Source: an uncultured bacterium
GTDB taxonomy: Bacteria; Bacteroidota; Bacteroidia; CAILMK01
Direction of reading: 5' to 3'
DNA length: 34,186 nucleotides
Assembly: GCA_903829945.1 (NCBI GenBank)
Contig: CAIKRV010000011.1
Location: forward strand, 78,255-112,440
Under the pieces are notes generated by a model. The model searched no databases and was not told where the DNA came from. It was given only the letters and a program-made list of their open reading frames with translations. The position numbers and the translations under genes were made by a program. Shown here in pieces: positions 4,230-27,820 of this stretch. Positions within the stretch are counted from its first letter, which is position 1. Every line of letters begins with the position of its first letter.

Positions 4230-7200
4230 GTGCCTGATTTCGTACATTTACACGTTCATACTCAATACTCATTACTAGATGGAGCTGCCAGTATCAGCTC
4301 ATTGATGGATAAAGCGAAAGCTGATAACATGAAAGCCATTGCGCTGACTGACCATGGCAATATGTTTGGTGCATTTAGTTTTGTTGCTGAAGCCAACAAA
4401 AAAGGAATTAAACCTATTGTTGGATGCGAATTTTATGTAGTGGAAGATAGAAGTATTAAATCCTTCCAAAAAGAATCCGGTGATAAAAGATATCATCAGT
4501 TATTATTAGCAAAAAATCAGGAAGGATATCAAAATTTATCTATGTTATGCTCCTTGGGTTATACTGAGGGAATGTATAGTAAATGGCCACGAATTGATAA
4601 AAAACTAATTCTTCAATACCACAAGGGGCTTATTGCTACATCATGTTGCATCGGTGCAGAAATACCGCAAGCAATAATTTACAAAAGTGAAGCGGAAGCT
4701 GAAGAATTATTAAAATGGTGGTTGGATGTATTTGGTGAAGATTTTTACATAGAACTTCAAAGACATCACTTAAAAAATTTAGATGGTTCCGGGAAAAGCC
4801 AGGAAGATGTGAATCAAATTTTATTGAAATGGGCTATAAAATATAATATCAAAGTTATTGCCACCAATGACTCCCATTATGTAGATAAAGAAGATGCGCC
4901 TGCGCATGATATTTTATTGTGTGTAAATACCGGAGAATTGCAAAGTACACCGGTAGGAGATGGCAGAGGATTTCGATTCGGGTTTCCTAATGATGAATTT
5001 TATTTCAAAAAACAGGCGGAAATGAATATTCTTTTTAAGGATGTACCGCAGGCGCTTGATAATACTATAGAAATTGTAGACAAGGTGGAAGAATTAAAAT
5101 TGACAAGAGATATTTTATTACCTAACTTCCCTTTGCCTGCCGGTTTTTCAGATGGTGATGAATATTTAAAACATCTCACCTTTCAAGGAGCTGCAAAGCG
5201 ATATTCAGAACTTAGTACGGAAATTGAAGAACGCTTAAATTTTGAATTGCATGTTATCAAAACCATGGGATTTGCGGGTTATTTTCTCATTGTACAAGAT
5301 TTTATAGCAGCAGGAAAAAACTTAGGCGTTGCCGTAGGACCGGGCCGTGGATCTGCAGCGGGTTCAGCAGTGGCCTATTGCATAGGAATTACAAATATTG
5401 ACCCCATAAAATATTCTTTGCTCTTTGAAAGATTTTTAAATCCGGAACGTATATCAATGCCGGATATTGATATTGATTTTGATGATGACGGAAGGCAGAA
5501 AGTGATTGATTATGTAGTAGAAAAATATGGTCGAAACCAAGTAGCACAAATTATTACTTTTGGTACCATGGCTGCGAAATCAAGTATTAAAGATGTAGCA
5601 CGTACGCTTGATTTACCATTACCTGATGCCAATTACCTCGCAAAACTTGTACCTGATGCGCCGGGTACAAATTTGAAAAAGGCCTTTGCTGATGTTCCGG
5701 AATTAAAAGAATTAAAAAACGGGAATGATTTAAAAGCTAAAACACTTCAGCTTGCTGAAAAACTGGAAGGCTCCGTAAGGAATACCGGAATCCATGCTGC
5801 AGGCGTCATCATAGCACCGGATGATATTAAAAAATATATACCGGTTTCTACCTCTAAAGAATCTGAATTATTTGTAACGCAATTTGACGGCAAGTATGTT
5901 GAATCCGCAGGAATGCTTAAAATGGATTTTTTAGGACTGAAAACGCTTTCCATTATTCGCGATGCTTTATTTTTAATTGAAAAGAACAAGGGAATAAATA
6001 TTAATATGGATAATATTCCTTTGGATGATGAAAATACTTTTGCGCTCTACCAAAAAGGTGAAACTGTAGGTACTTTCCAATTTGAATCTGAAGGCATGAG
6101 AAAGTACTTGCGAGAATTGAAACCGACCAATATTGAAGATTTAATTGCAATGAATGCATTGTACAGGCCGGGACCTATGGATTACATTCCAATGTACATC
6201 AATCGTAAGTTGGGCAAAGAAAAAGTTGAATATCCCCATGAATTATTAGAGCCTATTTTGAAAAATACTTATGGCATCATGGTGTACCAAGAGCAAATTA
6301 TGCAAACGGCACAAATCATTGCAGGCTATTCATTGGGCGGTGCGGATTTATTGAGACGTGCTATGGGTAAAAAGGATCAGGCAAAAATGGCCAAAGAGCG
6401 CGAAAAATTTGTAGAAGGAGCCTTTAAAATTCATAATATTGATGAAAATAAAGCCAATGATATTTTTAATGTCATGGAGAAATTTGCCAATTACGGATTT
6501 AATCGTTCTCACTCGGCAGCATATTCGGTTGTGGCGTATCAAACAGCATATTTAAAGGCAAATCATACCGCAGAATATATGGCTTCAGTGCTTACGCATA
6601 ATATGTCGAGTATTGAAAAAATATCCTTCTTTATGGATGAATGCAGAAGTTTAAATATTCCCGTGCTTGGCCCTGACGTGAATGAAAGTGCCATGTATTT
6701 TGATGTGAATAAACAAGGAAAAATACGGTTTGGAATGGCCGCAATTAAAGGTACCGGCGAATCAGCAGTGGAATCTATTATTTCTGAAAGAGAAATAAAT
6801 GGTCCTTTTAACGATGCTTTCAATTTGGCTGAACGTGTAAATTTGCGTGCCGTTAATAAAAAGACCTTTGAAAGTTTGGCACAATCCGGGGCATTTGACA
6901 GCTTTCCGGATATCCATCGGGCACAATATTTCTACAGTGACAGTGAAGCTACGCTTATTGAAAAAATTCTAAAGTATGGCGCTGCCTTTCAAAATTCAAA
7001 ATTAAATGTTACGCAATCATTATTTGGCAATGACAGTAATTACTCCTCAGTATCCAGACCAAAAGCACCCATATGCGAACCTTGGAGCAGCTTGGAGGCT
7101 TTAAATAAGGAAAAGGAAATTGTAGGTTTTTATATCAGTGGTCATCCATTGGATGAATATAAAACAGAAATAAAGCATTTCACCAATGCCAAAACATCCG

Positions 7201-7718
7201 ATTTTAAACCATTAATAGGAAAAATTCAAGTTCTTGCAGGGATCATTTCTAAAGTGGTACTTAGAAAAGATAAACGTGGAAATGATTGGGTTGCTTTTAA
7301 TTTTGAGGACTTTGATGGGAATATGGAATTCCGATTGTTTTCAGAAAACTATATCAAGTTCAGAAATTATATAGAAGAAGGGAAAGTAGTAATGATAAAA
7401 GTAATCGGCAAAACGCGTTATAATGGGGAGGTAGAGTCTGAAATATATGACATTTTTTTATTGGCGGAAGTGCATAACAAAATGACTAAAAATATTACAA
7501 TTAAAATCCCCTTAGGAGATTTAACTACTGAAATTTGTGAAGAGTTGGAGAGAATTGCATTATCCCATGCAGGCCCAACCACTTTGCGTGTAGAAATTAG
7601 TTTACCTGAGGAAAAATTACATATTAATCTGCCTTCATTAAAATATAAAGTTCAACCCGGATATGAATTATTTTCCAAAATCAATACTATTAAAAGTGTT
7701 GAAATTGGACTGAATTAA
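4230..7718 (+). CDS. dnaE: DNA polymerase III subunit alpha
   Basis: This is the replicative polymerase catalytic subunit, 1162 residues, close to the normal DnaE length. It opens with the PHP domain (HLHVHTQYSLLDG, residues 6-18). The polymerase core carries GPGRGSAAGSAVAY and the catalytic aspartates D412 and D414 in PDIDIDF, with the third acidic residue D566 in KMDFLGLK. A helix-hairpin-helix region follows, then an OB-fold at about residues 985-1065 (IQVLAGIISKVVLRKDKRG). The start is GTG at 4230: the PHP motif begins immediately after it, and no in-frame ATG lies upstream at a sensible distance. The gene stands alone, with its own promoter box upstream and a convergent aldehyde dehydrogenase downstream. 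Nothing is truncated. It is DnaE-type, not PolC, because no exonuclease domain interrupts the PHP domain. Confidence 0.97.
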   Translation: MPDFVHLHVHTQYSLLDGAASISSLMDKAKADNMKAIALTDHGNMFGAFSFVAEANKKGIKPIVGCEFYVVEDRSIKSFQKESGDKRYHQLLLAKNQEGYQNLSMLCSLGYTEGMYSKWPRIDKKLILQYHKGLIATSCCIGAEIPQAIIYKSEAEAEELLKWWLDVFGEDFYIELQRHHLKNLDGSGKSQEDVNQILLKWAIKYNIKVIATNDSHYVDKEDAPAHDILLCVNTGELQSTPVGDGRGFRFGFPNDEFYFKKQAEMNILFKDVPQALDNTIEIVDKVEELKLTRDILLPNFPLPAGFSDGDEYLKHLTFQGAAKRYSELSTEIEERLNFELHVIKTMGFAGYFLIVQDFIAAGKNLGVAVGPGRGSAAGSAVAYCIGITNIDPIKYSLLFERFLNPERISMPDIDIDFDDDGRQKVIDYVVEKYGRNQVAQIITFGTMAAKSSIKDVARTLDLPLPDANYLAKLVPDAPGTNLKKAFADVPELKELKNGNDLKAKTLQLAEKLEGSVRNTGIHAAGVIIAPDDIKKYIPVSTSKESELFVTQFDGKYVESAGMLKMDFLGLKTLSIIRDALFLIEKNKGININMDNIPLDDENTFALYQKGETVGTFQFESEGMRKYLRELKPTNIEDLIAMNALYRPGPMDYIPMYINRKLGKEKVEYPHELLEPILKNTYGIMVYQEQIMQTAQIIAGYSLGGADLLRRAMGKKDQAKMAKEREKFVEGAFKIHNIDENKANDIFNVMEKFANYGFNRSHSAAYSVVAYQTAYLKANHTAEYMASVLTHNMSSIEKISFFMDECRSLNIPVLGPDVNESAMYFDVNKQGKIRFGMAAIKGTGESAVESIISEREINGPFNDAFNLAERVNLRAVNKKTFESLAQSGAFDSFPDIHRAQYFYSDSEATLIEKILKYGAAFQNSKLNVTQSLFGNDSNYSSVSRPKAPICEPWSSLEALNKEKEIVGFYISGHPLDEYKTEIKHFTNAKTSDFKPLIGKIQVLAGIISKVVLRKDKRGNDWVAFNFEDFDGNMEFRLFSENYIKFRNYIEEGKVVMIKVIGKTRYNGEVESEIYDIFLLAEVHNKMTKNITIKIPLGDLTTEICEELERIALSHAGPTTLRVEISLPEEKLHINLPSLKYKVQPGYELFSKINTIKSVEIGLN

Positions 7719-7764
7719 AATCATTCTACCACCCTAATATCTTGAAATTTTAGTTGCGATGGAA

Positions 7765-9207
7765 TTAAAGTTTTATACAAACATTTTTAATTTCTCTAAA
7801 GAAATTTAATGCTTCAAAACCACCTTCCCTTCCTACCCCGGATGATTTCATCCCTCCGAATGGGGTGCGTAGGTCTCTTAATAACCAGCAATTAATCCAA
7901 ATAATACCACTTTGCACTTGATGAGCCATACGATGTGCTTTTTGTAAGTTACTGGTCCAAATAGTTGCACTTAGTCCATACATGGTACTATTAGCCATTT
8001 GCAATACTTCCTCTTCGCTTTTAAAAGGCGTAAGGGTAACCACAGGACCAAATATTTCTTCCTGATTGGTTCTACACATAAATGGCAATCCTTCAATAAT
8101 GGTAGGTTCTATAAAATATCCATGGTTGCATCTACCTTCAGGATGTACGGCATTCCCTCCTGCTAATATTTTTCCCCCTTCCTCTTTTGCCAGGTTAATA
8201 TAGGAAAGTATTTTTTCATAATGCATTTTAGACACGATGGCCCCTACCCTGGTATCTTCCAATAACGGATCACCTACTTTTAATTGTTTTGCTTTTTCAA
8301 CGAATGCAGATTTGAACTTATCATAAATACTTTCTTCTACAAAAATGCGGGAACCACAAAGACATATTTGGCCTTGGTTAGAAAAGGAAGATTGCACAGT
8401 TGTTTTGAGCATGGCCTCAAAATCACAATCAGCAAAAATAATATTTGGGTTTTTACCTCCAAGTTCTAAGGATAATTTCTTGAATTTAGGTGCTGCTTTT
8501 CGAGCAATTTCTTCACCTGTTTTGGTACCGCCTGTAAAGGAAATGGCTTTTATGTCCGGATGTTCGGTAATGGCATTACCAACCTTTGGCCCTAAGCCAT
8601 GAACAATATTTAAAACACCTGCAGGCATTCCGGCATCCATACAAATTTCAGAGAGTAAATAGGCAGTCATTGGAGTTACTTCTGAAGGCTTAGCCACCAC
8701 ACAACAACCCGAAGCAATGGCAGGTGCTATTTTCCAAGTAAATAAATATAAAGGCAGATTCCATGGAGAAATACATCCTACCACTCCAATTGGCGTATAA
8801 TAAGCGTAATTGATGGCCGTTAAATCCGTTTGATGAGCCTCATTGGATTCATGAAGTATTGCAGTAGCAAAGAATTTAAAATTATCACGTGCGCGAGGAA
8901 TATCAACGGCCTTGGCAAGCCAAAGCGGTTTGCCATTATCCAAACATTCCGCTTCCGTCAGCTCCTGCATTCTTGATTCAATCATGGCTGCAACCTTCAG
9001 CATGATTTGTGAACGTTTCTCTGCCGGAGTAGCTGACCATATAGGGAAGGCTCTGCCGGCAGCCTCTACTGCCATTTGTACGTCCTTGTCATCGGAATCC
9101 GGAATAAAAGAATATATATCCCCTGTGGCAGGATTATAATTATCTAAAAACTGCCCGGATAAGGCATCCTGCAATTTCCCGTCAATATAATTTTGAATTT
9201 TCCTCAT
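7765..9207 (-). CDS. NAD-dependent aldehyde dehydrogenase, ALDH8 (2-aminomuconic semialdehyde dehydrogenase)-like
   Basis: The 480-residue protein has a complete aldehyde dehydrogenase fold: SPWNLPL (148-154), SFTGGTKTG (223-231), the general base E248 in LSLELGGKN, and the catalytic cysteine C282 in QGQICLCGSR. The C-terminal motif NCWLLRDLRTPFGGMKSSGVGREGG closely resembles the ALDH8A1/2-aminomuconate and hydroxymuconate semialdehyde dehydrogenase branch, which oxidises semialdehydes from aromatic or kynurenine breakdown. The substrate is inferred from that resemblance only; no other kynurenine-pathway gene lies beside it. It is monocistronic: the yceI terminator lies upstream, and a TAACTTTG box at 9227-9234 sits 20 bases before the ATG. 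It converges on dnaE with a 46-base gap and no clear hairpin. Confidence 0.9.
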   Translation of the reverse strand: MRKIQNYIDGKLQDALSGQFLDNYNPATGDIYSFIPDSDDKDVQMAVEAAGRAFPIWSATPAEKRSQIMLKVAAMIESRMQELTEAECLDNGKPLWLAKAVDIPRARDNFKFFATAILHESNEAHQTDLTAINYAYYTPIGVVGCISPWNLPLYLFTWKIAPAIASGCCVVAKPSEVTPMTAYLLSEICMDAGMPAGVLNIVHGLGPKVGNAITEHPDIKAISFTGGTKTGEEIARKAAPKFKKLSLELGGKNPNIIFADCDFEAMLKTTVQSSFSNQGQICLCGSRIFVEESIYDKFKSAFVEKAKQLKVGDPLLEDTRVGAIVSKMHYEKILSYINLAKEEGGKILAGGNAVHPEGRCNHGYFIEPTIIEGLPFMCRTNQEEIFGPVVTLTPFKSEEEVLQMANSTMYGLSATIWTSNLQKAHRMAHQVQSGIIWINCWLLRDLRTPFGGMKSSGVGREGGFEALNFFREIKNVCIKL

Positions 9208-16863: not shown

Positions 16864-16909
16864 AACGACAAATAAAAAGCCCTGAATTCAGGGCTTTTTA
16901 TTTGTCGTT
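16864..16909. terminator. 46-base perfect palindrome, bidirectional terminator
   Basis: Arms of 23 bases are exact complements centred on GAATTC; the strong core is AAAAAGCCCTGA/TCAGGGCTTTTT. Both directions give a GC stem followed by a T-tract. It lies 11 bases after the plus-strand stop and touches the stop codon of the minus-strand operon at 16909-16911. Confidence 0.85.
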
Positions 16910-18099
16910 TATTTTATTTTCTTGTACACCCCTAATGGGCCATCACTGTACAAATCATTATAATATCTATTTAAAATAGTCCCTAATACCGGAGTATAAT
17001 ATTCCCAGAAAAAGCTAGTTCTGCTGGTTAAGTCCTCCCTAGTATAAAACAAAGGGCTCAAATACCATATTCCTTTTAATTTAGCTAAATAATCTTTAAT
17101 GGGATTATCAGCAAAATCGCCGGAAAAATAAAAGAATTTATAGGCCGAATCATAATGCTCCAACATAGCAGGGAAATGCGTTGGAATATTATAGGCCTGC
17201 AGCAAGGAGTCTCCATGCTTATTCGGATATAACTCAAATACTGAAACAACATGGTTTCTGTGGGTGGTAAGCATAATATCAAACCAATAAGGATAACCTA
17301 CCTTTTCAGGAATATTATATCTGCTTTGGTCCGCTTTATTGGTGATAATGCAAGGACTTTCTTTTTCCAAATGCGTTCCGATTTCCAAAACTTCCACATG
17401 GTCATCATCCCTATCAAATACCATTCCTGCCTTTTTAAATGGCCATCTATTGCCATGTTGCATTTTATAATTCCGAACCACCCAATGGGGTAATTCTTTA
17501 TTTATAGTTGTATCTAAACACTCAAAATAACGACCAATCCAGCCGGTCCATTTCATGCCGTACATTTCTTCAAATTGTGAACGAACACCATAACTGGTCG
17601 GTGAACAAATAGTATTAAACTCACAAATCACTAATTTTTTCTGGTCCTTCATCCTCCGAATAACGTTAAGGTCTTCGGGTTGCATACCTCCAAAAATATG
17701 TGGACTTCTTTCAGTTGTTCTTCCTATTTTATACCACTCATTATAATACATGCCATAAGTATCAGTAAAATAGGCCATATCGTACTTATTGGGAATATTA
17801 TCCAATTGTACCTTGGTCATATTTTCAAAACCTTGCTTATTGAATTTTTCGCTATCCTGAGGAAAGAAACCGTAATAATCATCAGAAATGGAATATTGTT
17901 TTCCGTTCGGACGAACAAATTTTTTATAGTTCAATATCCAATTCAAAGAACGATGTTCTTGCCCTGTTCGAGTCAGGACTGTTTTATCTATTATAGCGAT
18001 CTTGATTTCCCTCTTGGCAGTTAACTGCCAAATTAAATACATCCAAACAGGGGTAAGGAGTATAAAGTAAAATCCAAGAATTATATATCTTCTTCTCAT
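16909..18099 (-). CDS. Membrane-anchored periplasmic protein of unknown function, last gene of the polysaccharide-type operon
   Basis: 396 residues from ATG 18099, one base after the stop of the YaiO-type gene, which is why this start is preferred; an open frame runs further upstream to 18171 but would overlap that gene. MRRRYIILGFYFILLTPVWMYLIW is a single N-terminal anchor (about residues 5-27) with a basic cytoplasmic tip. The rest appears periplasmic: IKIAIIDKTVLT at the start, KLVICEFNTICSPTS and MKWTGWIGRYFECLD in the middle, and FFYFSGDFADNPI near the end. The order of strand-like motifs hints at an alpha/beta fold, but no family could be named and no catalytic site is certain. Its place after a GT2 synthase and an outer-membrane TPR-barrel protein suggests a role in processing or handing over a polysaccharide in the periplasm. 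Confidence 0.8.
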   Translation of the reverse strand: MRRRYIILGFYFILLTPVWMYLIWQLTAKREIKIAIIDKTVLTRTGQEHRSLNWILNYKKFVRPNGKQYSISDDYYGFFPQDSEKFNKQGFENMTKVQLDNIPNKYDMAYFTDTYGMYYNEWYKIGRTTERSPHIFGGMQPEDLNVIRRMKDQKKLVICEFNTICSPTSYGVRSQFEEMYGMKWTGWIGRYFECLDTTINKELPHWVVRNYKMQHGNRWPFKKAGMVFDRDDDHVEVLEIGTHLEKESPCIITNKADQSRYNIPEKVGYPYWFDIMLTTHRNHVVSVFELYPNKHGDSLLQAYNIPTHFPAMLEHYDSAYKFFYFSGDFADNPIKDYLAKLKGIWYLSPLFYTREDLTSRTSFFWEYYTPVLGTILNRYYNDLYSDGPLGVYKKIK

Positions 18100-18100
18100 G

Positions 18101-19861
18101 TTAAAATCTTCTTTCCAAGGTGAAGCCAAAGGTATAATCAAACCTTGTTCTGGAATAAGGCAATTGATCATCCTCCAATGCAGTTCTGAGGTTCAATACG
18201 GTACGACTATTAATTAGGAAGTTTCGGTCTAATTTAATTTTATAGGCATTTAGCAACGGCGATCTACTCACCAATACATAATCCTTAGAATGTTCATCCG
18301 GAGAAAAACCTCTACTAAGACTTAATGTCCAATAATTATCAGCAGTACCTCTAGGATAATACCTGGTAATAAACATAAATGATTTGGAAGCTACACCGTA
18401 ATCGCCCGGAGTAATGAAAGGTCGTAAGGAGAACCAGAATTTCCCATAATATTTTCCAATGGAACCCGTAAATATATCTACCGGGCCTAGACGCGGTGCA
18501 AAATATAAAACACGTATTCCTACTTCAATTTCTAAAGACCAAGGTAAATTTCTATAAATAGATGCACCCCAACGATAGCGCGGGAATACTACTTCCTCTG
18601 CGGAATAGCCGGCATTCAAATACATATAAGTTTTACGCGCAATACTTGGATAAGCATCTATTTCGTATTGAACACCATTAATATTTGTAAATCGATTGGC
18701 ATAATTTACCCTTCCAATGACGGTACCGATCGGTGTCTGTCTGGAATAATATAAAGATACCAAATGCCATGGTGCACTAAATGAATTTTTAGGCGTAAAA
18801 TAATCCAAGTCATAGGATAAACTCAAACTATTATGAATCATTTCATCCCTAAGTGCTTTACGATACATTTTTGAAGAAGTACTGCTATCGGGATGATGTT
18901 GAATAAAACTATCCAGCATATCCGCAGCATCTTTATATTTCTTTTGATCTACCTGAGCTTTTGCTTTTTTTACATGCAAATCATCAGACTTCGGTTTTAA
19001 GCGCAAGGCCTTTGTTGCATAAGATTCAGCTTCCCAAGGTTGATTGGCCCAATATTTTAAATCTATGATGGCATTTAGAGCTTCTAGATTAGTTGAATCT
19101 TTTGACAATACCCAGCGCAGCGTTCTTTCAGCAGTATCATATTTAGAATCCCAAGTATTGATTCTTGCTAAAAAAACATAAACATCCATATAATTTGGAG
19201 AACGTTTCAGAATGGAATCAATTAAAATTCTTGCTTGAGGGCGATTTCCATTAAATGCATAATTTCGGGCTTCTTTAAATAAATCATCAACTCCCTTATC
19301 AAACCTATGCTTTACTAAAGTATCTCTTAAAGACCTGCTTTGCTTATTAGATGAAGTATCGGGATTTATTTTTAGAAAAGTGTCTAACTGTGCAAGTGCC
19401 GCCTCGTTGTCCTTATTGTATACTTGAATTTTTGCCTTTTTATAATGGAACCTATCCGATTTATTATTAATTGATAATCCACGGTCAGCAAAATCATTGG
19501 CAATATTTATTTTATCTGACCAATAATTTAAATCAATACTTGCATCAATAGCTTCTTCATTATTGGGATCTGAATTTAATACATCATTCAATATTGAAGT
19601 TGCAGTATCATATTTCCCATCCCAAATATTTATTCTGGCCAAAAATACCTTAACTTCATTGTATGTTGGAGAAATTTGGAGAATAGTATCAATTGTTTTC
19701 CTTGCATCTGCACGGCGCCCGGAAAAAGCTTGCTTTCGAGCATCCTTAAATAACGAATCTACACTCTTATGTTCGGTACCTTGTGCCTTACTATCATGGA
19801 AGCATAATAGTAAGCATAATATACTTAAATAGGAAATGGTATATTCTCTTAATTTATTCAT
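18101..19861 (-). CDS. YaiO-type outer-membrane protein: TPR region plus C-terminal beta-barrel
   Basis: 586 residues from ATG 19861; this start follows the GT2 stop by 13 bases and opens with a signal peptide (ISYLSILCLLLCFHDSKAQ). An in-frame ATG at 19954 would overlap the GT2 gene by 80 bases and hide the signal peptide. Residues about 34-345 are TPR-like and consist of two homologous halves starting VDSLFKDAR (34) and VDDLFKEAR (191), 157 residues apart. Residues about 345-586 are a beta-barrel rich in aromatic strands ending FDYTFGFTLERRF with a terminal Phe. TPR plus barrel is the layout of exopolysaccharide export proteins such as PgaA, BcsC and PelB, and the barrel resembles YaiO. It probably sits in the outer membrane and exports the product of the adjacent synthase. 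Confidence 0.88.
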   Translation of the reverse strand: MNKLREYTISYLSILCLLLCFHDSKAQGTEHKSVDSLFKDARKQAFSGRRADARKTIDTILQISPTYNEVKVFLARINIWDGKYDTATSILNDVLNSDPNNEEAIDASIDLNYWSDKINIANDFADRGLSINNKSDRFHYKKAKIQVYNKDNEAALAQLDTFLKINPDTSSNKQSRSLRDTLVKHRFDKGVDDLFKEARNYAFNGNRPQARILIDSILKRSPNYMDVYVFLARINTWDSKYDTAERTLRWVLSKDSTNLEALNAIIDLKYWANQPWEAESYATKALRLKPKSDDLHVKKAKAQVDQKKYKDAADMLDSFIQHHPDSSTSSKMYRKALRDEMIHNSLSLSYDLDYFTPKNSFSAPWHLVSLYYSRQTPIGTVIGRVNYANRFTNINGVQYEIDAYPSIARKTYMYLNAGYSAEEVVFPRYRWGASIYRNLPWSLEIEVGIRVLYFAPRLGPVDIFTGSIGKYYGKFWFSLRPFITPGDYGVASKSFMFITRYYPRGTADNYWTLSLSRGFSPDEHSKDYVLVSRSPLLNAYKIKLDRNFLINSRTVLNLRTALEDDQLPYSRTRFDYTFGFTLERRF

Positions 19862-19874
19862 ATGCAAATAATGC

Positions 19875-21353
19875 TTATACGGAAAGATGTGGGTTAGTGG
19901 AAACTTCAGAAATATTTGCTTTATTAGATTTTTTCTTAAGGGTACCAAAACCAATTCTCGTCATTTCACCCCAATTTTTCATTCCCATGAGTAATTGATA
20001 ATTGCCGCGCAATGACCAATAAACTGTTAACGGGTGATAAAAAACAGGCTCTAGAATGGCTGTTAATAATAATTTAAATATATCAGATCTTTTTCGATAT
20101 TGATGAAATGAACGTTCTTCAAACAATAATGCTGAGAGCGAAATCACTAAGGAAAAGGCAAATAACATAGATGACAAAGTAAGGAATAATGGCCAATAAG
20201 CCTGTCCTGATAATACTAAAATAATAAAATAAACTATCCCGGCACTTTCCACCCAAGGCGCTAAAAATTCAAAGAAAAACCAATACGGATAACTCACCAT
20301 TCCTAAAAATCCATAGCTCGGATTAAAGAATAACCCTCTATGCATAAACAAGGTTTCGATGGTTCCGCGCGCCCATCTGCTTCTTTGACGACCAAGTACC
20401 TTTAAGTTATCAGGCGCTTCAGTCCAGCATAATGGATCCGGTACATACATTACTGTATAAGGGATATTGTTTTCAATCATATATCGCCGCATCCGTACCA
20501 CCAATTCCATATCTTCCCCTACGGTATTTTTATTATACCCGCCTGCCTTTAAAGCAATTTCTTTATCAAATAGTCCAAATGCGCCTGATACTAAAAGTAA
20601 TCCGTCTAATCTGCTCCATGCCATTCGCCCCATCAAAAAAGCTCTAAAATATTCCAACACTTGAACTCTTGGCAAGAATTTTTTTGGAAGATTAATTTTA
20701 ATTAAACGTCCTTTATCCACCTCACATGAGTTTGCAATTGATATAACCCCTCCTACCGCTACTACCCTTTTTGTATCTTCCATAAATGGTTTTACAATTT
20801 TTAGCAATGCGGTTTCTTCCATTATGCAATCCACATCAATACAGGCAATAATCTTACAAGAGGAAATATTCATTCCCACATTTAAAGCATCTGCTTTACC
20901 GCCATTTTCCTTATCAATAACTAGTAAGCGATGGTAGGCCGGATTTTTAGATTTATAAATGTTTTTAATAGGCTGCGTAGCTAAATACTCATGGAAGACA
21001 TATTTTACAGCTTCCAATTCGTACGCATCTATTAATTTTTCCAGCGAATTATCCTTACTGCCGTCATTTACAATTATTACTTCGAAATTACTGTATTGTA
21101 AAGATAATAATGACCTTACATTTTGAATGATCGTCAGAGCCTCATTGTAAGCAGGCGCAATAACTGAAATAGACGGAGCAAAAGTGGACCTTAAAATAGA
21201 ACCATAGTCTATATAGCTATTTCTTTTTAAATATTTACTTATAGCACTGGAGGAGATAAACGCCAATAATGCATATGACCCGCATATCACTATGGCATAA
21301 ACCAAAATTCCTTTGATTATAAGCTGGTTAAAAAAATCGTAAAAACCGTACAT
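19875..21353 (-). CDS. Membrane-bound family 2 glycosyltransferase (processive polysaccharide synthase type)
   Basis: The 492-residue enzyme has a transmembrane segment near residues 12-34, a GT2 domain, and C-terminal membrane segments at about 355-410 and 425-445. Motifs are all present: PAYNE (67-71), VNDGS (95-99), DVD (173-175, metal and sugar-nucleotide binding), GED (279-281, catalytic base) and QRSRW (323-327, the Q/RxxRW motif of processive synthases). It therefore probably polymerises a sugar from a nucleotide donor and pushes the chain across the inner membrane, as BcsA, PgaC or NodC do. The sugar cannot be deduced. No PilZ domain is attached. It sits in the operon 24 bases after the LysM-HEAT gene and 13 bases before the YaiO-type gene. 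Confidence 0.92.
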   Translation of the reverse strand: MYGFYDFFNQLIIKGILVYAIVICGSYALLAFISSSAISKYLKRNSYIDYGSILRSTFAPSISVIAPAYNEALTIIQNVRSLLSLQYSNFEVIIVNDGSKDNSLEKLIDAYELEAVKYVFHEYLATQPIKNIYKSKNPAYHRLLVIDKENGGKADALNVGMNISSCKIIACIDVDCIMEETALLKIVKPFMEDTKRVVAVGGVISIANSCEVDKGRLIKINLPKKFLPRVQVLEYFRAFLMGRMAWSRLDGLLLVSGAFGLFDKEIALKAGGYNKNTVGEDMELVVRMRRYMIENNIPYTVMYVPDPLCWTEAPDNLKVLGRQRSRWARGTIETLFMHRGLFFNPSYGFLGMVSYPYWFFFEFLAPWVESAGIVYFIILVLSGQAYWPLFLTLSSMLFAFSLVISLSALLFEERSFHQYRKRSDIFKLLLTAILEPVFYHPLTVYWSLRGNYQLLMGMKNWGEMTRIGFGTLKKKSNKANISEVSTNPHLSV

Positions 21354-21377
21354 ACCTTTAAATTTTGATACCCAATT

Positions 21378-23183
21378 TTAATTATAACTATTAAATACTT
21401 GAATACCTATGTTTTCTTCATTTGTATTGACAATTTTTCTCAATGCATCTACCCCTTTTTCACCGGAGCTCACTAATGCATTGGCCGCAGCATGTGCAAC
21501 TTCAAAATTATCATGAAACACATACTTCGATACTTCACTGATATGGTCATCAAAACCAATCGCAGCAACGCTTGCTAATATGGATTCCTTTACCGGAACA
21601 CTAGCCGTCCTTAGCTCCAAAAATAAAGCCGGTAAGGCCTCTTTTGCTATTAATCCACCTAAAGCAGCAGCTACGGCAGTTTTCACCATCGGTGATTCAT
21701 GATGAATTAATTCAATCAGCCTTGGCACATAACTAAGCATATTAAAATCTTGTACAATCTTCACCCCTAAGCAAATTACCGAGGTATTGGAACAAGATAA
21801 CAATGAGGGCATATTACTAAAATCTCTATTTCGAATAATGTGCAATTTATTAGCAAGCATCATTTGTTGCCAGTCAGTTAAAGGTAATTTTAACTCCTCC
21901 AGAAATACCAAATTTCTTTCATCCTTCAAGCTCATGACTGCAATCTGGGATTCAAATCTCAGCGTATCTATTGGGTGGTCAATATAAGAATAAACCATGC
22001 TGTATGCTTCTTGCACATGCATTTGTTCTACTTCTTGTATCCCTTTCGCTTTAATATGCCAATGTCTATCTTTTATTTTTGATAAAGAATCCTGATCCAG
22101 TTTAAATGCATGATAAAGGTTTACCACCCGGGCCGCACTTACTCCGGTTAAATTACGATATAAGTTTAGCAAGTGATCAATGCATAATTGCCTTTGAAAC
22201 TCATTCGTTAAATATTTCTTTTCAAATTGAGCAATTACACTTAATTGTGCAGCATCAAATTCATCATCTGCTAAACTTGAATCAATTTCATGATCAGCGT
22301 AAATTACTCCTGTAATTAAATCCTCAAATGCATTCCCAAATAAATTACTGATGGCTTCATTAACCGTGGTTCTTACCCTTAAAATAATAATCATGGTCAA
22401 TAAAATCAAAATCACAAAAATCAGTAAAGTAGTAAATATAATTAAACTGGTAACGATGAGGGGCTGGTGACTAATTCTATGAACATAGAAACTAGGCTTC
22501 AACCATTTACTCGGACCTTTAAATTGAGCATTTGCTTTGGCCTTTTCTAGAGCTACTGAATCCTTCCTGTAAGCCTCCTCTATCGAATCACGCTTGGCAA
22601 TAGATAGACTATCGTGTTTTAAGGTGTCTTTTGCTACTACTGTTCCATGATCCTCAGATTGAATATTTTTTTCCTTAATAGGAGTGGAACTTTCATGTTT
22701 TGCGACCTTATTTTCATTTGCCTTTTGAACAGTTGCTAATGGCACTGATGCATGTGCAACAGCATTTGAATTTACTGATGCATTTGCAATCGAATTTGAA
22801 TGTTTTGGAAGAATATGAGTATGTAATCCTTCATAACCTACAATCAATACTTTACCGGTATCCAGTTTATTAAGATTGTGAAGATTGTTCCAATGTGCAA
22901 TTTCATCAATGTAAACATGGTGGGAGATAGCTATAAATCCTAATTCATCGCCATATTTAACTTTATACAATATTGGCTTTCCATAGGAGTTATTAGTATT
23001 TGCAAGAACGGGAAGAATATTATTTTTCTTCTTAGCGACAATTTTTTGTTTTTGTCCGCTGTCTGATTTTATAAGATTATTATTTTGTGCTACCCCAACT
23101 TGAGGAACCAATAAAATAATAAAAAACACTATTGAGAGGTAAGTCGAAGATCTAAAAAAATATTTAAGGGAAATAAAAAGCAT
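21378..23183 (-). CDS. LysM domain-transmembrane-HEAT repeat protein
   Basis: About 601 residues from ATG 23183, chosen because MLFISLKYFFRSSTYLSIVFFIILLV then forms the N-terminal signal/anchor. An in-frame TTG at 23270 overlaps the response-regulator stop (TTGA) and would add 29 residues. In the ATG numbering, a LysM motif (YKVKYGDELGFIAISHHVYIDEIAHWNNL) lies at about 72-118, then a charged low-complexity stretch, a strong membrane segment at about 242-270 (VTSLIIFTTLLIFVILILLTM), and a C-terminal part with HEAT-like repeats (MVKTAVAAALGGLIAKEALPAL; FEVAHAAANALVSSG). LysM would bind peptidoglycan in the periplasm, while the HEAT part would lie in the cytoplasm. It may be a scaffold linking cell wall, synthase and response regulator. 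The domain calls are seen; the scaffold role is inferred. Confidence 0.85.
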   Translation of the reverse strand: MLFISLKYFFRSSTYLSIVFFIILLVPQVGVAQNNNLIKSDSGQKQKIVAKKKNNILPVLANTNNSYGKPILYKVKYGDELGFIAISHHVYIDEIAHWNNLHNLNKLDTGKVLIVGYEGLHTHILPKHSNSIANASVNSNAVAHASVPLATVQKANENKVAKHESSTPIKEKNIQSEDHGTVVAKDTLKHDSLSIAKRDSIEEAYRKDSVALEKAKANAQFKGPSKWLKPSFYVHRISHQPLIVTSLIIFTTLLIFVILILLTMIIILRVRTTVNEAISNLFGNAFEDLITGVIYADHEIDSSLADDEFDAAQLSVIAQFEKKYLTNEFQRQLCIDHLLNLYRNLTGVSAARVVNLYHAFKLDQDSLSKIKDRHWHIKAKGIQEVEQMHVQEAYSMVYSYIDHPIDTLRFESQIAVMSLKDERNLVFLEELKLPLTDWQQMMLANKLHIIRNRDFSNMPSLLSCSNTSVICLGVKIVQDFNMLSYVPRLIELIHHESPMVKTAVAAALGGLIAKEALPALFLELRTASVPVKESILASVAAIGFDDHISEVSKYVFHDNFEVAHAAANALVSSGEKGVDALRKIVNTNEENIGIQVFNSYN

Positions 23184-23266
23184 CACAAGTTTGGTCAAAC
23201 ACTTTATCTCAAATGCATGCAAGTTGGAGCTTTCAAGTTCCCAATAATGTATTTTTTTATTCAGTT

Positions 23267-23641
23267 TCAATTGTCTTTCTGAATTCTATTTAAAATTTTG
23301 GCAACCCTAACACTTAATTCATTAGGGCTAAAAGGTTTAGTTATAAAATCATCTGCACCAAGCCTAAAAGCTTCCAAAATGGTGGCTTCCAAATGCATAT
23401 TTGAAAGGACAATAATTGGCGTTTGTTTCTTTAAAGTATTTTTCAAGGTACTTACCAGTTCCAAACCACTTATAAATGGCATCATTATATCGGTAATAAT
23501 CAAGTCAAAGTATTCCGTCTTGATCTTTTCCAAGGCTAAATCCCCATTACTTGCCGTATCAACCTCATAGCCATCTTTTTCCAATCGAGTACGAATTAAT
23601 TTCATAATCATACCATCATCTTCGGCTATCAATATTTTCAT
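23267..23641 (-). CDS. Stand-alone response regulator receiver (REC) protein
   Basis: The 124-residue protein is a single CheY-like receiver: acidic pocket E7-D8-D9, phospho-acceptor D51 in LIITDIMMP, S80 in the Thr/Ser position and K102 in TKPFSP. There is no output domain, so it should act through protein contacts, as CheY or Spo0F do. It is the first gene of the operon with the LysM-HEAT, GT2 and YaiO-type genes. The downstream partner overlaps or follows within 83 bases. No histidine kinase is encoded in the window, so the phosphate source must be elsewhere. A TATATTTG box (23801-23808) and a leader hairpin (23683-23701) precede it. Confidence 0.95.
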   Translation of the reverse strand: MKILIAEDDGMIMKLIRTRLEKDGYEVDTASNGDLALEKIKTEYFDLIITDIMMPFISGLELVSTLKNTLKKQTPIIVLSNMHLEATILEAFRLGADDFITKPFSPNELSVRVAKILNRIQKDN

Positions 23642-23960: not shown

Positions 23961-24575
23961 ATGTATTATCCTATTTTCTCCAAATATTTGCAAATTCTAC
24001 CGATATTCGCCTCATCATTAGCAGTGAATTCACAAATTTCAAATATTGACCAAGAAGAGATCATTATCAAAGGGATCAGAGAAGGAAATCAAGCTGCTTT
24101 ACGTTTGCTGTTTCAAAAATACGGCAAAGCTCTTAAAGGTGTAATTTTCAGAATTATAAATGATGTTGAAACCTCTGAAGATTTGCTTCAGGAAACCTTT
24201 GTAAAAATTTGGCAAAATTTTGATTTATTTGATGAAAATAAGGGCAAACTATTCACTTGGATGCTAAATATCGCCAGAAATACTGCTATTGATAAGTTAC
24301 GGTCCACAAAATTCATCCAAGGGAAAAAGATCCAGGAATTAAATGAGGCCGTTCCTAAAATTGATGCCGCCAATAATTTCGAAATTCAATTGGATCACAT
24401 TGGTATACAAAGTCTTACAAAAATTTTAAAGCCTGAACTTAAGGAAGTTGTGGATTTAGTATATTTTCTAGGTTATTCTCATAGTGAGGCAGCTGAAAAT
24501 CTAAATATTCCATTAGGAACCGTAAAAACTAGAATCCGCTCAGCCATTAATGAATTAAGGAAAGTATTTGTATGA
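23961..24575 (+). CDS. ECF-type RNA polymerase sigma factor
   Basis: The 204-residue product has sigma-70 region 2 (DVETSEDLLQETFVKIWQNFDLFD, with the W of the -10 recognition helix, and FTWMLNIARNTAIDKLRS) and region 4 with a helix-turn-helix (GYSHSEAAENLNIPLGTVKTRIRSAINELRK). Regions 1.1 and 3 are absent, as in ECF sigma factors. The start is uncertain: the ATG at 23961 adds a hydrophobic N-terminal tail unusual for the family, and a GTG at 24024 would begin MNSQISNIDQEEII, nearer the conserved domain. The stop overlaps the anti-sigma start by four bases (ATGA). It is divergent from the exopolysaccharide-type operon, which may be a target, but that is a guess. Confidence 0.93.
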   Translation: MYYPIFSKYLQILPIFASSLAVNSQISNIDQEEIIIKGIREGNQAALRLLFQKYGKALKGVIFRIINDVETSEDLLQETFVKIWQNFDLFDENKGKLFTWMLNIARNTAIDKLRSTKFIQGKKIQELNEAVPKIDAANNFEIQLDHIGIQSLTKILKPELKEVVDLVYFLGYSHSEAAENLNIPLGTVKTRIRSAINELRKVFV

Positions 24576-25378
24576 AACCTGAAGATTACATATTATCCGG
24601 TATTTTAGAGCTCTATGTCTGTGGAGCTCTGAAAAATGAAGAATGCTTGGAAGTGCAACTTATGGCCAAACAACACCCTGAAATTCAAATAGAAATTGAT
24701 AAAATTGAACAAAGTTTAAAAAAACTTGCTGAAAGTGGTCAAACTCTACATGAACATACCTTTGAAAACATCATTGATCAGGTAAATGAATCAGAGCATA
24801 TCGCTGACAATAATAAAATTATTCCATTACATCCTTTCCATGACCAGCAGAGGAGAAGATATATTTCATTAATGGTTGCCGCAGTAGCCTTATTTTTACT
24901 AGCCAGTGTCAGTAATGTTTATTTTTTTAATCATTGGAAAAATAGTGAAAAATCCTTAATTGCCTTAAAAGTAGAGGACAATAAAACACACAAAGCATAT
25001 TTGGAAACCCAACAAAAACTAAATTCAATGCAAGATGAACTTGCTTCCTATAAAAGCAAGGATTTAATGGTCGTCATGTTGCATCCGATGAAAAAAAATA
25101 TGGATTATAAAGCCATTGCATTATATAATCCAAAGATGAAATCCATTCAATTAAAAGTGATGAACTTGCCTACAGCACCTCAAGGCATGCAATACCAATT
25201 ATGGGCCATAAAAGACGGAAAAGCCACCGATGCAGGAATGATAACTGAGATCAATAAAATGGAAACCATGAAATCCATTCCTAATTCGGATTCTTTTGCC
25301 ATCACCATGGAAAAAGCAGGTGGTAGTTCTGAACCAACCATGGCTTCTATGCTACTCATGGGTAAGATTGAAATTTAA
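24572..25378 (+). CDS. Anti-sigma factor, RskA-like
   Basis: The 268-residue protein is coupled by ATGA overlap to the ECF sigma gene. Residues 1-95 are cytoplasmic and acidic, including the short helical zone (ILSGILELYVCGALKNEE) typical of sigma-binding domains. One membrane segment lies at about 98-117 (ISLMVAAVALFLLASVSNVYF), then a coiled-coil-like stretch (LETQQKLNSMQDELASYKSKD). The periplasmic C-terminus has the RskA pattern (YKAIALYNPKMKSIQLKVMNLPTAPQGMQYQLWAIKDGKATDAGMI and FAITMEKAGGSSEPT). It would hold the sigma factor at the membrane until a signal triggers release. The signal is unknown. Confidence 0.92.
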   Translation: MKPEDYILSGILELYVCGALKNEECLEVQLMAKQHPEIQIEIDKIEQSLKKLAESGQTLHEHTFENIIDQVNESEHIADNNKIIPLHPFHDQQRRRYISLMVAAVALFLLASVSNVYFFNHWKNSEKSLIALKVEDNKTHKAYLETQQKLNSMQDELASYKSKDLMVVMLHPMKKNMDYKAIALYNPKMKSIQLKVMNLPTAPQGMQYQLWAIKDGKATDAGMITEINKMETMKSIPNSDSFAITMEKAGGSSEPTMASMLLMGKIEI

Positions 25379-25379
25379 T

Positions 25380-26324
25380 TTATCTCAGCTTTTTAGCTGA
25401 AGAATAAGTAAAAATTTGATACCCTCTAATCTTGACAAATTTCTCAACCACATCCGGTATTTGCTTCTCCATTCTCATCATCTCATATTGTTCTTTAAAC
25501 AACTGATAGGCCTCTTCAAAACGGTGCGACTGAAAGTACAAGCCACAATGATCCTCCAAAGATGAAAATAATATTATTACATTAGAAATTTTATTAAGTC
25601 CTTGAGCAGCAATTGCAATGGTTTTTAAATCATTTAATGCATAAGAAAATGAAGGCTCATTTCTATAATTAACTAAAACAATTCGATCAGAATTTTGTAA
25701 AATATTTTTAGCGCGATGACCGGGCCGCCACCAGCCAAAATTCCCTACATAAACTTCAGTTTTAACAGTGGGACTAAGCATTTTTGAAGCATTAAAAATA
25801 GGAATTAATGAGTTCATAAATTGTTTAAAATTATGCGACGGATTATTATTCCTCCATTCATCTTCCAACTGAAATACATCAATTCTTTCGTTTAAATCAA
25901 TGTGATTTAAATTGTAAGTAAACATAGTTAAATAACTTAAATTTTTATCTTCAGTATAAAACCATTTGGAAGTACTCTCCACTCCTATTATTTCTACAAT
26001 TCCGTAGGTCATTTTGGCCATTTTTATAAAATTAGACAGCCTTATTTTTATTGGATTTGTATCGGAACAATCCAAAATATCGGACATATATAAACTCAAG
26101 GCATTAAAATTATTATTTTTTACCCATTGAAGTAATTCCTCTTCATCCTGATCATTTAATAAGATATTTTTGAAATTATCTATATAAATACTTCTAATTT
26201 CTGCTTCAGCGACTACAGGAGGATGATCCTTTTCTAAATGAATTAAATACCGACAAGCGCTTGTCCCTATTATTAATAAAAGGAAGCTTATCCAAGAAGC
26301 AATAAAAAATATTCTCCTATTCAT
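25380..26324 (-). CDS. Exported or lipid-anchored protein of unknown function
   Basis: About 314 residues from ATG 26324; an ATG at 26330 two codons upstream is equally possible. The N-terminus MNRRIFFIASWISFLLLIIGTSAC is a signal peptide or imperfect lipobox ending at C24. The body alternates strand- and helix-like segments (AEIRSIYIDNFKNILL; FNALSLYMSDIL; GIVEIIGVEST; DRIVLVNYRN; SNVIILFSSLED), which would suit a TIM-barrel or other alpha/beta fold, but no family is recognised and no active site can be assigned. The start overlaps the end of the DUF2400 remnant by eight bases, so the two genes were probably an operon. Its stop is one base from the anti-sigma stop on the other strand. Confidence 0.75.
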   Translation of the reverse strand: MNRRIFFIASWISFLLLIIGTSACRYLIHLEKDHPPVVAEAEIRSIYIDNFKNILLNDQDEEELLQWVKNNNFNALSLYMSDILDCSDTNPIKIRLSNFIKMAKMTYGIVEIIGVESTSKWFYTEDKNLSYLTMFTYNLNHIDLNERIDVFQLEDEWRNNNPSHNFKQFMNSLIPIFNASKMLSPTVKTEVYVGNFGWWRPGHRAKNILQNSDRIVLVNYRNEPSFSYALNDLKTIAIAAQGLNKISNVIILFSSLEDHCGLYFQSHRFEEAYQLFKEQYEMMRMEKQIPDVVEKFVKIRGYQIFTYSSAKKLR

Positions 26325-26588
26325 TAGCAAATTTATCTACCACCCCTAAACCAAATAATGCAAAATCATATTTTACAGGGTCCAAAGGATCAAACTTTTT
26401 CAAATTTTCAGTAAGTTCTATCGTTGCCTCCCAATCGGATTGTTTGCGCTTAAGCAGGCCAAGTTTCCTTGCTACTCTTCCTACATGTATATCCTGCGGT
26501 ATTAGTAACTGTGCTGGCTTTATTTTTTCCCACAAACCAAAATCTATCCCTAAATCATCCTTTCTGACCATCCAACGTAAATACATGT

Positions 26589-26611
26589 ATTTACGGGTAA
26601 TTAGGGTAGTA
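26589..26611. repeat. Terminal inverted repeat, left end of element
   Basis: Pairs with 27210-27232. It begins ATTTACGGGTAATTA. Together with the host flank it forms a 20-base perfect palindrome (26576-26595) centred on the target ACATGT. Confidence 0.8.
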
Positions 26612-26626
26612 GGTGAATGATTCAAT

Positions 26627-26965
26627 CTATTCATGTTTACTACTTATATCTTGAGTGGTTTCATCGCCAAAATTTGTCAACGGATTATAATCATCAATCC
26701 TCTTTCGTGCCCAAGAAAGCCAGTCTACTAGCGGACTAATCAATACTTCATTTTTAGTTGCATTGTCCTCAATTGCGTTTAGATAATTATGAACAATCGC
26801 AGACTTATGCCATTTTTCAGCGTCAGTCATTAATTTATTGAAATCTGCAATTTCCTTTTCTCTTGCTAATTGAGCTTCCTTCCTAATTCTATCCTGTTCT
26901 TTATTCTTTGCTTTGTCCGATGGACGGTGGTCAGTTTGACCGAGTTTTCCATTTAAGTACCGAAA
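26627..26965 (-). pseudogene. Truncated passenger reading frame in the element (left-facing)
   Basis: An open frame of 112 codons ends at 26627. Only its last 67 codons follow an ATG (26830). The product is helix-rich and charged (AKNKEQDRIRKEAQLAREKEIADFNKL, then KWHKSAIVHNYLNAIED and VDWLSWARKRIDDYNPL). The protein-like composition continues upstream of the ATG into a region without a start codon, so this looks like the 3' part of a longer gene. No family is recognised. Confidence 0.5.
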
Positions 26966-27209
26966 CTATGAAGAATATTCAACTTTCTTAACTGACTGGT
27001 CCGCACTTGAATGGCTCTGGATTAGTCATCAAAGAAAACAAGCATTGGACAGTGAAGATTTAGAAGAAGACTATGAACTGACAAAGTTTCTTCTAAAGAG
27101 AAAAGGGATTAAACCTCCTCCTAAATCTGCTTTTAAAGGACTAGAATCAGTATCCTCACATCATGAAACCATTCTGCTGGATACCAATCATTTAATTAAC
27201 TATGATTGA
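26940..27209 (+). pseudogene. Truncated passenger reading frame in the element (right-facing)
   Basis: An 89-codon open frame without an ATG ends at 27209, one base before the right inverted repeat. Its translation is protein-like (YRNYEEYSTFLTDWSALEWLWISHQ; LDSEDLEEDYELTKFLLKRKGIKPPPK). It may be the 3' end of a second gene from the parent element, or chance. It overlaps the left-facing frame by 26 bases, near the presumed deletion junction. Confidence 0.3.
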
Positions 27210-27232
27210 TACTACCTTAATTACCCGAACTT
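27210..27232. repeat. Terminal inverted repeat, right end of element
   Basis: Read inward on the minus strand it begins AAGTTCGGGTAATTA and matches the left end at 19 of 23 positions. Its first bases supply the premature TAA that ends the N-terminal DUF2400 fragment. Confidence 0.8.
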
Positions 27233-27820
27233 ACATGTTTAATCGTTTACAGGAGGAATTTTTCAGCGGACTGGAAATATGCTTTTTGGTTCGTTCCGGG
27301 TATTCAGGCAAAGAAAAAAACAAATCAGAAAATTCAATTAACCCTTGCGTTACATTTTTACTTTCAGAATTAATTGAAGCCGTAAAAGCATCTTCTAAAG
27401 AATTATATTCATGATAAAAATAATGAAAGAATTCAACAAAATACAATAAGTCCTCCGTATTAAAAGTTCGATGTTTAAAATTAACGATTTGAACCAAGTC
27501 TTTGTTAGAATGATTTAAAATAAAATCATAAGGAGCATGGTCCATTCTGCTCATTAATTCCTTGCCTTTATTAATGATCGTTTTTCGACCTCCCCAAGCA
27601 AAAATCGCCGCGAAAAAACCACTGATCTCTATATCTTGTTTTAGAGTAAATGTATGGGGTATACAAATTGGATCGTCCTCAATAAATGCCCATTGATGAT
27701 ATAAATAAAATTTTTCATCGAGAAATGATTTTAGTACTTCTATTTTGGATGGATTCATTATTGAGGTGGTCCGAATATTTTAAAATATCATGCAAAATAC
27801 GATGTTTCCATCCATATTAT

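Follow-up and report, generated by a model that had tools for sequence, protein, structure and literature searches.

We propose, with moderate confidence, that five same-strand genes of an uncultured Bacteroidota bacterium encode a synthase-dependent machine for polysaccharide synthesis and export, placed under two-component phosphorylation control through a phosphorylated receiver (REC) protein and a HEAT-repeat protein. The predicted parts make it probable that a sugar polymer is both produced and exported by this machine. The five genes are one copy of a machine that is widespread in Bacteroidota and has apparently gone undescribed; we found no description of REC-HEAT-GT2 in the literature searched, most subscription journals being outside its coverage.

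Gene organization

The genes lie in a window of 34,186 nucleotides, by which we mean the whole stretch of DNA that was analysed. All five ORFs are on the minus strand and follow each other, 5' to 3', as REC, LysM-TM-HEAT, GT2, TPR-YaiO and a membrane-anchored protein (Table 1). This is the order given by an earlier sequence-only reading, and the domains it had assigned to the first four genes were confirmed. The gaps of 1, 13, 24 and 83 bases, or an overlap, which it had also reported, are reproduced when later starts are taken for HEAT (about 23183), YaiO (about 19861, an ATG) and the fifth gene (about 18099). These later starts yield plausible signal or anchor sequences in all three proteins and are probably the true ones.

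Table 1. The five genes of the cluster, in window positions; each ORF is listed from its first possible start codon.
Gene product	Position	Strand	Family evidence
Stand-alone REC (receiver), 124 aa	23267..23641	-	PF00072, 1.8e-30; Response_reg, 105.8 bits
LysM-TM-HEAT adaptor	21378..23270	-	PF01476 (LysM, 33.2), PF13646 (HEAT_2, 49.5)
Membrane GT2, putative synthase, 492 aa	19875..21353	-	PF00535 (Glycos_transf_2, 82.4), PF13641, PF03142
TPR + YaiO outer-membrane beta barrel	18101..19954	-	PF19413, 4.8e-60, and TIGR04390, 1e-43, both above cut-off
Inner-membrane-anchored protein, GATase1/GIFT-like domain	16909..18171	-	No Pfam family; 39-member alignment, AF2 fold

An Rfam scan of the whole window gave no match, and the Bacteroidota -33/-7 promoter pattern matched twice, below chance expectation and in neither case before REC. 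A reading of the locus as a defence system was rejected, PADLOC having returned weak matches only, to REC- and GT2-like pieces.

Conservation across Bacteroidota

A search with the GT2 protein, taking one genome per GTDB species, left 80 loci at 53-86% identity, most of them titled as Sphingobacteria-, Chitinophaga-, Cytophaga-, Flavobacteria- and Bacteroidales-type organisms. Immediately upstream of GT2, and on its strand, 79 of these 80 loci have a TM-HEAT gene, the remaining contig beginning at GT2, and the HEAT and GT2 ORFs overlap in 63. Within 8 kb, 69 loci have a stand-alone REC and 63 have YaiO; an LtaS-like membrane protein is encoded in 49 loci, the fifth protein in 37, and 39 loci have a histidine kinase. 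Since YaiO and the fifth gene vary in strand and position between lineages, the link between HEAT and GT2 is not merely an unbroken ancestral gene order.

The same pairing holds when it is approached from the genome side. HEAT-profile and strong GT2 matches coincide in 60 relatives, and across 198 genomes of the phylum every HEAT-profile match adjoins a GT2 match (32/32) and every GT2 match of at least 425 bits has a HEAT match (31/31). That sample contributed 17 further loci, mostly deeply diverged and including GT2s at 36-43% identity, with a HEAT-profile match beside GT2 in 16, some of them weak and the lowest at 18 bits. By these counts, whose loci are related by descent and cannot be taken as independent, the gene linkage is far beyond chance. 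Conservation of gene order in Bacteroidota had been chosen beforehand as a check that could overturn the sequence-only reading, and the genes proved to be co-conserved far beyond close relatives. Among the five proteins, the distance correlations are 0.58-0.84 and exceed those of every shuffle, which shows co-inheritance only and not binding. The HEAT-GT2 pair can serve as a genome marker for finding the system. One contig titled Beijerinckiaceae (L085; L numbers denote our loci) carries a typical Pedobacter-type arrangement and is probably mis-binned.

Synthase and exporter

Pfam and alignment place all the motifs of a processive synthase (D, DxD, xED and Q(R)xRW in a membrane GT2) in the window protein, where they read D, DVD, GED and QRSRW. 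They are invariant across 91 aligned homologues except for the S of QRSRW, which is mostly replaced by N. The host genome holds one strong GT2 copy. The top NCBIfam model for this protein is PgaC_IcaA, at 131.9 bits, and the identity to E. coli PgaC is 26% over 305 columns. On these figures GT2 belongs with the processive synthases but not to PgaC, as it falls far below the PgaC/IcaA cut-off of 422.3 bits. In the deep relatives L145 (5010-5987) and L146 (9733-10719), a sugar-nucleotide epimerase/dehydratase gene lies directly upstream of HEAT and may point to the sugar donor.

The exporter belongs to the YaiO barrel family, scoring well above the curated cut-offs of PF19413 (202.9 against 23.9) and TIGR04390 (149.9 against 32), and it joins to this outer-membrane beta barrel a periplasmic TPR part, likewise above cut-off, of the kind typical of synthase-dependent secretion. 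To the PgaA equivalog it scores 42.2 bits against a cut-off of 366.7, the signal coming from the TPR part. Together, the GT2 motifs and the TPR-barrel protein fit the synthase-dependent secretion architecture that the sequence-only reading had predicted. In L031, the run of genes also includes one for a CotH-kinase family protein (6737-8071), flanked by YaiO and HEAT.

HEAT adaptor and receiver

The HEAT protein of the window is an inner-membrane protein with a TM segment at about 266-303 (TM scan) and a cytoplasmic HEAT solenoid at 340-630, of which the 400-500 segment is conserved, with W404, R438, E440, W467, Q469 and N495. The AlphaFold2 model has pLDDT mostly above 93 over HEAT residues 341-610, with lower values at the C-terminal end and poor ones over the LysM part. 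A fold search with this model matched many alpha-solenoids, among them alphaRep and the PP2A A subunit; these matches confirm the fold and are uninformative on function. The common form of the family is shorter, with about 340-390 aa comprising a TM segment and HEAT repeats. Pfam assigns HEAT_2 to 68 of the 69 family members; 3 carry LysM and 2 carry SPOR. LysM and SPOR are, on these domain counts, optional peptidoglycan-binding additions to a core of one TM segment plus HEAT, so that the LysM anchor, which had been taken as part of the system, turns out to be lineage-specific. The Flavobacteriia-type loci L136 (7348-9927), L137 (8560-11355) and L138 (8548-10629) encode HEAT proteins with acidic C-terminal extensions of about 300-500 aa, and that of L137 has an extra HEAT match near its end.

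The REC protein is by sequence a stand-alone response regulator: it lacks an output domain, and its acceptor Asp51 and its Lys102 are intact. Of 77 aligned sequences, 75 keep the acceptor Asp and 76 the Lys, which bears out the earlier view that this REC can be phosphorylated. REC stands directly before HEAT in 51 of the 80 loci and is present in 57 of the 66 that have 4 kb of upstream sequence; YaiO takes its place immediately before HEAT in 9, and REC is on the opposite strand in several. A histidine kinase gene lies directly 5' of REC, on the same strand and at most 55 bases away, in 21 of 68 loci. Both kinases that we looked at are of the hybrid type, rich in PAS domains and equipped with Hpt, while in one Flavobacteriia-type locus Hpt is encoded by a gene of its own. 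L048 and L059 are examples of loci with a hybrid kinase next to REC. No kinase gene adjoins the window locus.

In well-studied bacteria it is mostly c-di-GMP that switches the synthesis of matrix polysaccharides. We found no GGDEF and no PilZ family match in the host genome (99.99% complete), with control genomes positive for both, so what the sequence-only reading had noted for the cluster holds genome-wide, and the PilZ-type c-di-GMP receptor that is common in, if not strictly defining for, synthase-dependent secretion has no match in this host. A HEAT adaptor tied by gene order to one GT2 clade throughout the phylum, together with REC and often a kinase, offers a concrete, directly testable answer to how such bacteria may switch synthase-dependent secretion. 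The absence of c-di-GMP enzymes does not extend to the system as a whole: the deep relatives L140 (4633-6195) and L141 (3907-5532) encode, at the equivalent place upstream of GT2, REC-GGDEF-REC proteins whose C-terminal domain is REC, and in L140 the gene immediately precedes HEAT. In L141, none of the ORFs beside GT2 was recognized as HEAT, although a frameshift or a missed ORF is possible there. These fusions suggest that the input may differ in kind while REC stays, and c-di-GMP may matter in some lineages.

Transferase and fifth protein

A major component missed by the earlier five-part list, all of whose parts stood, is an LtaS-like PF00884 membrane phosphotransferase/sulfatase, which has no gene in the window locus. 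It is encoded in 49 of the 80 GT2 loci, 17 of which have it joined to the GT2 C-terminus, and it bears TPR repeats in L071, L101 and L136. These GT2-transferase and transferase-TPR fusions would tie synthesis, modification and export together in a fusion chain from synthase to exporter. The transferase matches VP1736 (3lxq) and LtaS (2w8d) in sequence and is a putative phosphoglycerol or phosphoethanolamine transferase, or a sulfatase. On another contig, the host genome carries a tandem pair of relatives of this transferase, at 38% and 44% identity.

The fifth protein is membrane-anchored, as had been recognized, and its AF2 model (mean pLDDT 86.6) adds a GATase/GIFT-like fold. The model matches GATase1-like folds at Z 12-14, namely GH42 domain B, STM1381, STM3548, Agd3, OST48 and IFT52; sharing this Flavodoxin-like GATase fold is uninformative on function. 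The protein has no Pfam or NCBIfam family match, and comparison of the family with solved structures by sequence gave chance-level matches only (E 0.45). Its 39 homologues share many invariant columns, including K63, H73, D98, D137, E184 and N186, and constitute an unclassified conserved protein family. Going by residues it is not a glutamine amidotransferase, because no invariant or nearly invariant Cys occurs among the 39 members. Our guess from gene context is that it binds or modifies a glycan.

Comparison with known systems

By analogy, the layout resembles those of the Pga, Bcs, Yai and Nfr clusters, none of which, to our knowledge, has a counterpart of the HEAT-REC control unit. E. coli PgaABCD likewise combines a membrane processive GT2 with a TPR-barrel outer-membrane exporter but has PgaB, PgaD and c-di-GMP control, in place of which we find HEAT and REC, a YaiO barrel, a GATase-fold protein and, in relatives, the LtaS-like transferase. 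Membership in Pga was rejected, GT2 and exporter both being below the NCBIfam equivalog cut-offs. The E. coli yaiS-yaiP-yaiX-yaiO cluster shares a GT2 (YaiP, 25% over a part) and a barrel named YaiO; however, YaiP is only weakly similar, the two YaiO proteins give no significant BLASTP match, and the cluster is without HEAT or REC. In E. coli K-12, yaiX is interrupted by IS2. The E. coli NfrA/NfrB/YbcH set also unites a GT2, an outer-membrane protein and an auxiliary protein, but NfrB is annotated as c-di-GMP activated, and kinship with it was discarded because the two GT2s have next to no similarity (E 0.018).

In the Bcs system with BcsG, a processive GT2 is combined with BcsC, a TPR-barrel protein for export, and with a transferase by which the polymer is decorated in the periplasm. 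All three elements have their like here, the transferase in relatives, but BcsA carries PilZ, whereas here PilZ is lacking and HEAT/REC occupy the regulator position. The transferases of the LtaS type (2w8d, 3lxq) resemble the partner found in relatives in sequence but differ in that the latter is linked or fused to GT2 and TPR, in Gram-negative Bacteroidota.

Proposed mechanism and alternatives

In the mechanism we propose, a (hybrid) histidine kinase would phosphorylate REC, and phosphorylated REC would dock on the HEAT solenoid in the cytoplasm. Kept beside GT2 in the membrane, the HEAT protein would then alter the activity or the assembly of GT2, which would extrude the polymer into the periplasm. 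There, the LtaS-like transferase, encoded elsewhere in the host genome, and perhaps the GATase-fold protein may bind or modify the polymer before TPR and YaiO carry it out, and in the lineage of the window LysM would tether the complex to peptidoglycan. In this scheme REC, HEAT and GT2 would be in physical contact. The strongest form of this proposal, in which phosphorylated REC binds the solenoid and directly gates GT2 as a phylum-wide post-translational switch replacing c-di-GMP/PilZ in Bacteroidota, is tentative, and we would put it slightly short of an even chance.

It is also conceivable, if somewhat unlikely, that the machine is the same and that HEAT is a constitutive scaffold for the assembly or localisation of GT2, with REC acting elsewhere, for example in a kinase relay or on transcription via another regulator, so that phosphorylation would have no direct effect on synthesis. 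The near-absolute linkage of HEAT to GT2, set beside the weaker one of REC (57/66), would fit such a role, as would the 9 loci with YaiO directly before HEAT and those with REC on the other strand. On the other hand, REC lies directly before HEAT in 51 loci, has a kinase gene directly before it in 21, and carries no output domain.

The remaining alternatives concern the product. The frequency of the LtaS-like partner (49/80 loci, fused to GT2 in 17) and its matches to LtaS and VP1736 could mean that GT2 makes a cell-bound glycopolymer, teichoic-acid-like or lipid-linked, which the transferase decorates, rather than an exopolysaccharide. We regard this as unlikely, in view of the TPR-YaiO exporter in 63 of 80 loci, the fusion of the transferase to TPR in some, and the precedent of BcsG, a pEtN transferase that acts on a secreted polymer. 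An ordinary, divergent Pga-type poly-GlcNAc system would be in keeping with the top NCBIfam model and the PgaC identity of GT2 and with the TPR-barrel exporter; it is nevertheless highly improbable, given the GT2 score (132 bits against 422), the different barrel family (YaiO), a window cluster without any PgaB- or PgaD-like gene and an E. coli pga cluster without HEAT and REC.

Neighbouring genes

Divergent from the REC gene, and about 320 bases from it, are genes for an ECF sigma factor and an RskA-type anti-sigma factor (23961-25378). They are followed by a 316-aa ORF (25380-26330) with no Pfam or NCBIfam match, which lies between the anti-sigma gene and a broken DUF2400/TIGR02757 gene (26317-27758). 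About 600 bp, with imperfect inverted repeats of about 28 bases on either side, separate the N-part of the latter (27231-27758) from its C-part (26317-26634). The repeat core is confined to this site genome-wide, bar one match with 2 mismatches, and a 42-base piece inside the insert recurs at 8 further genome sites, several of them near contig ends. The interruption is probably a small transposon-like insertion.
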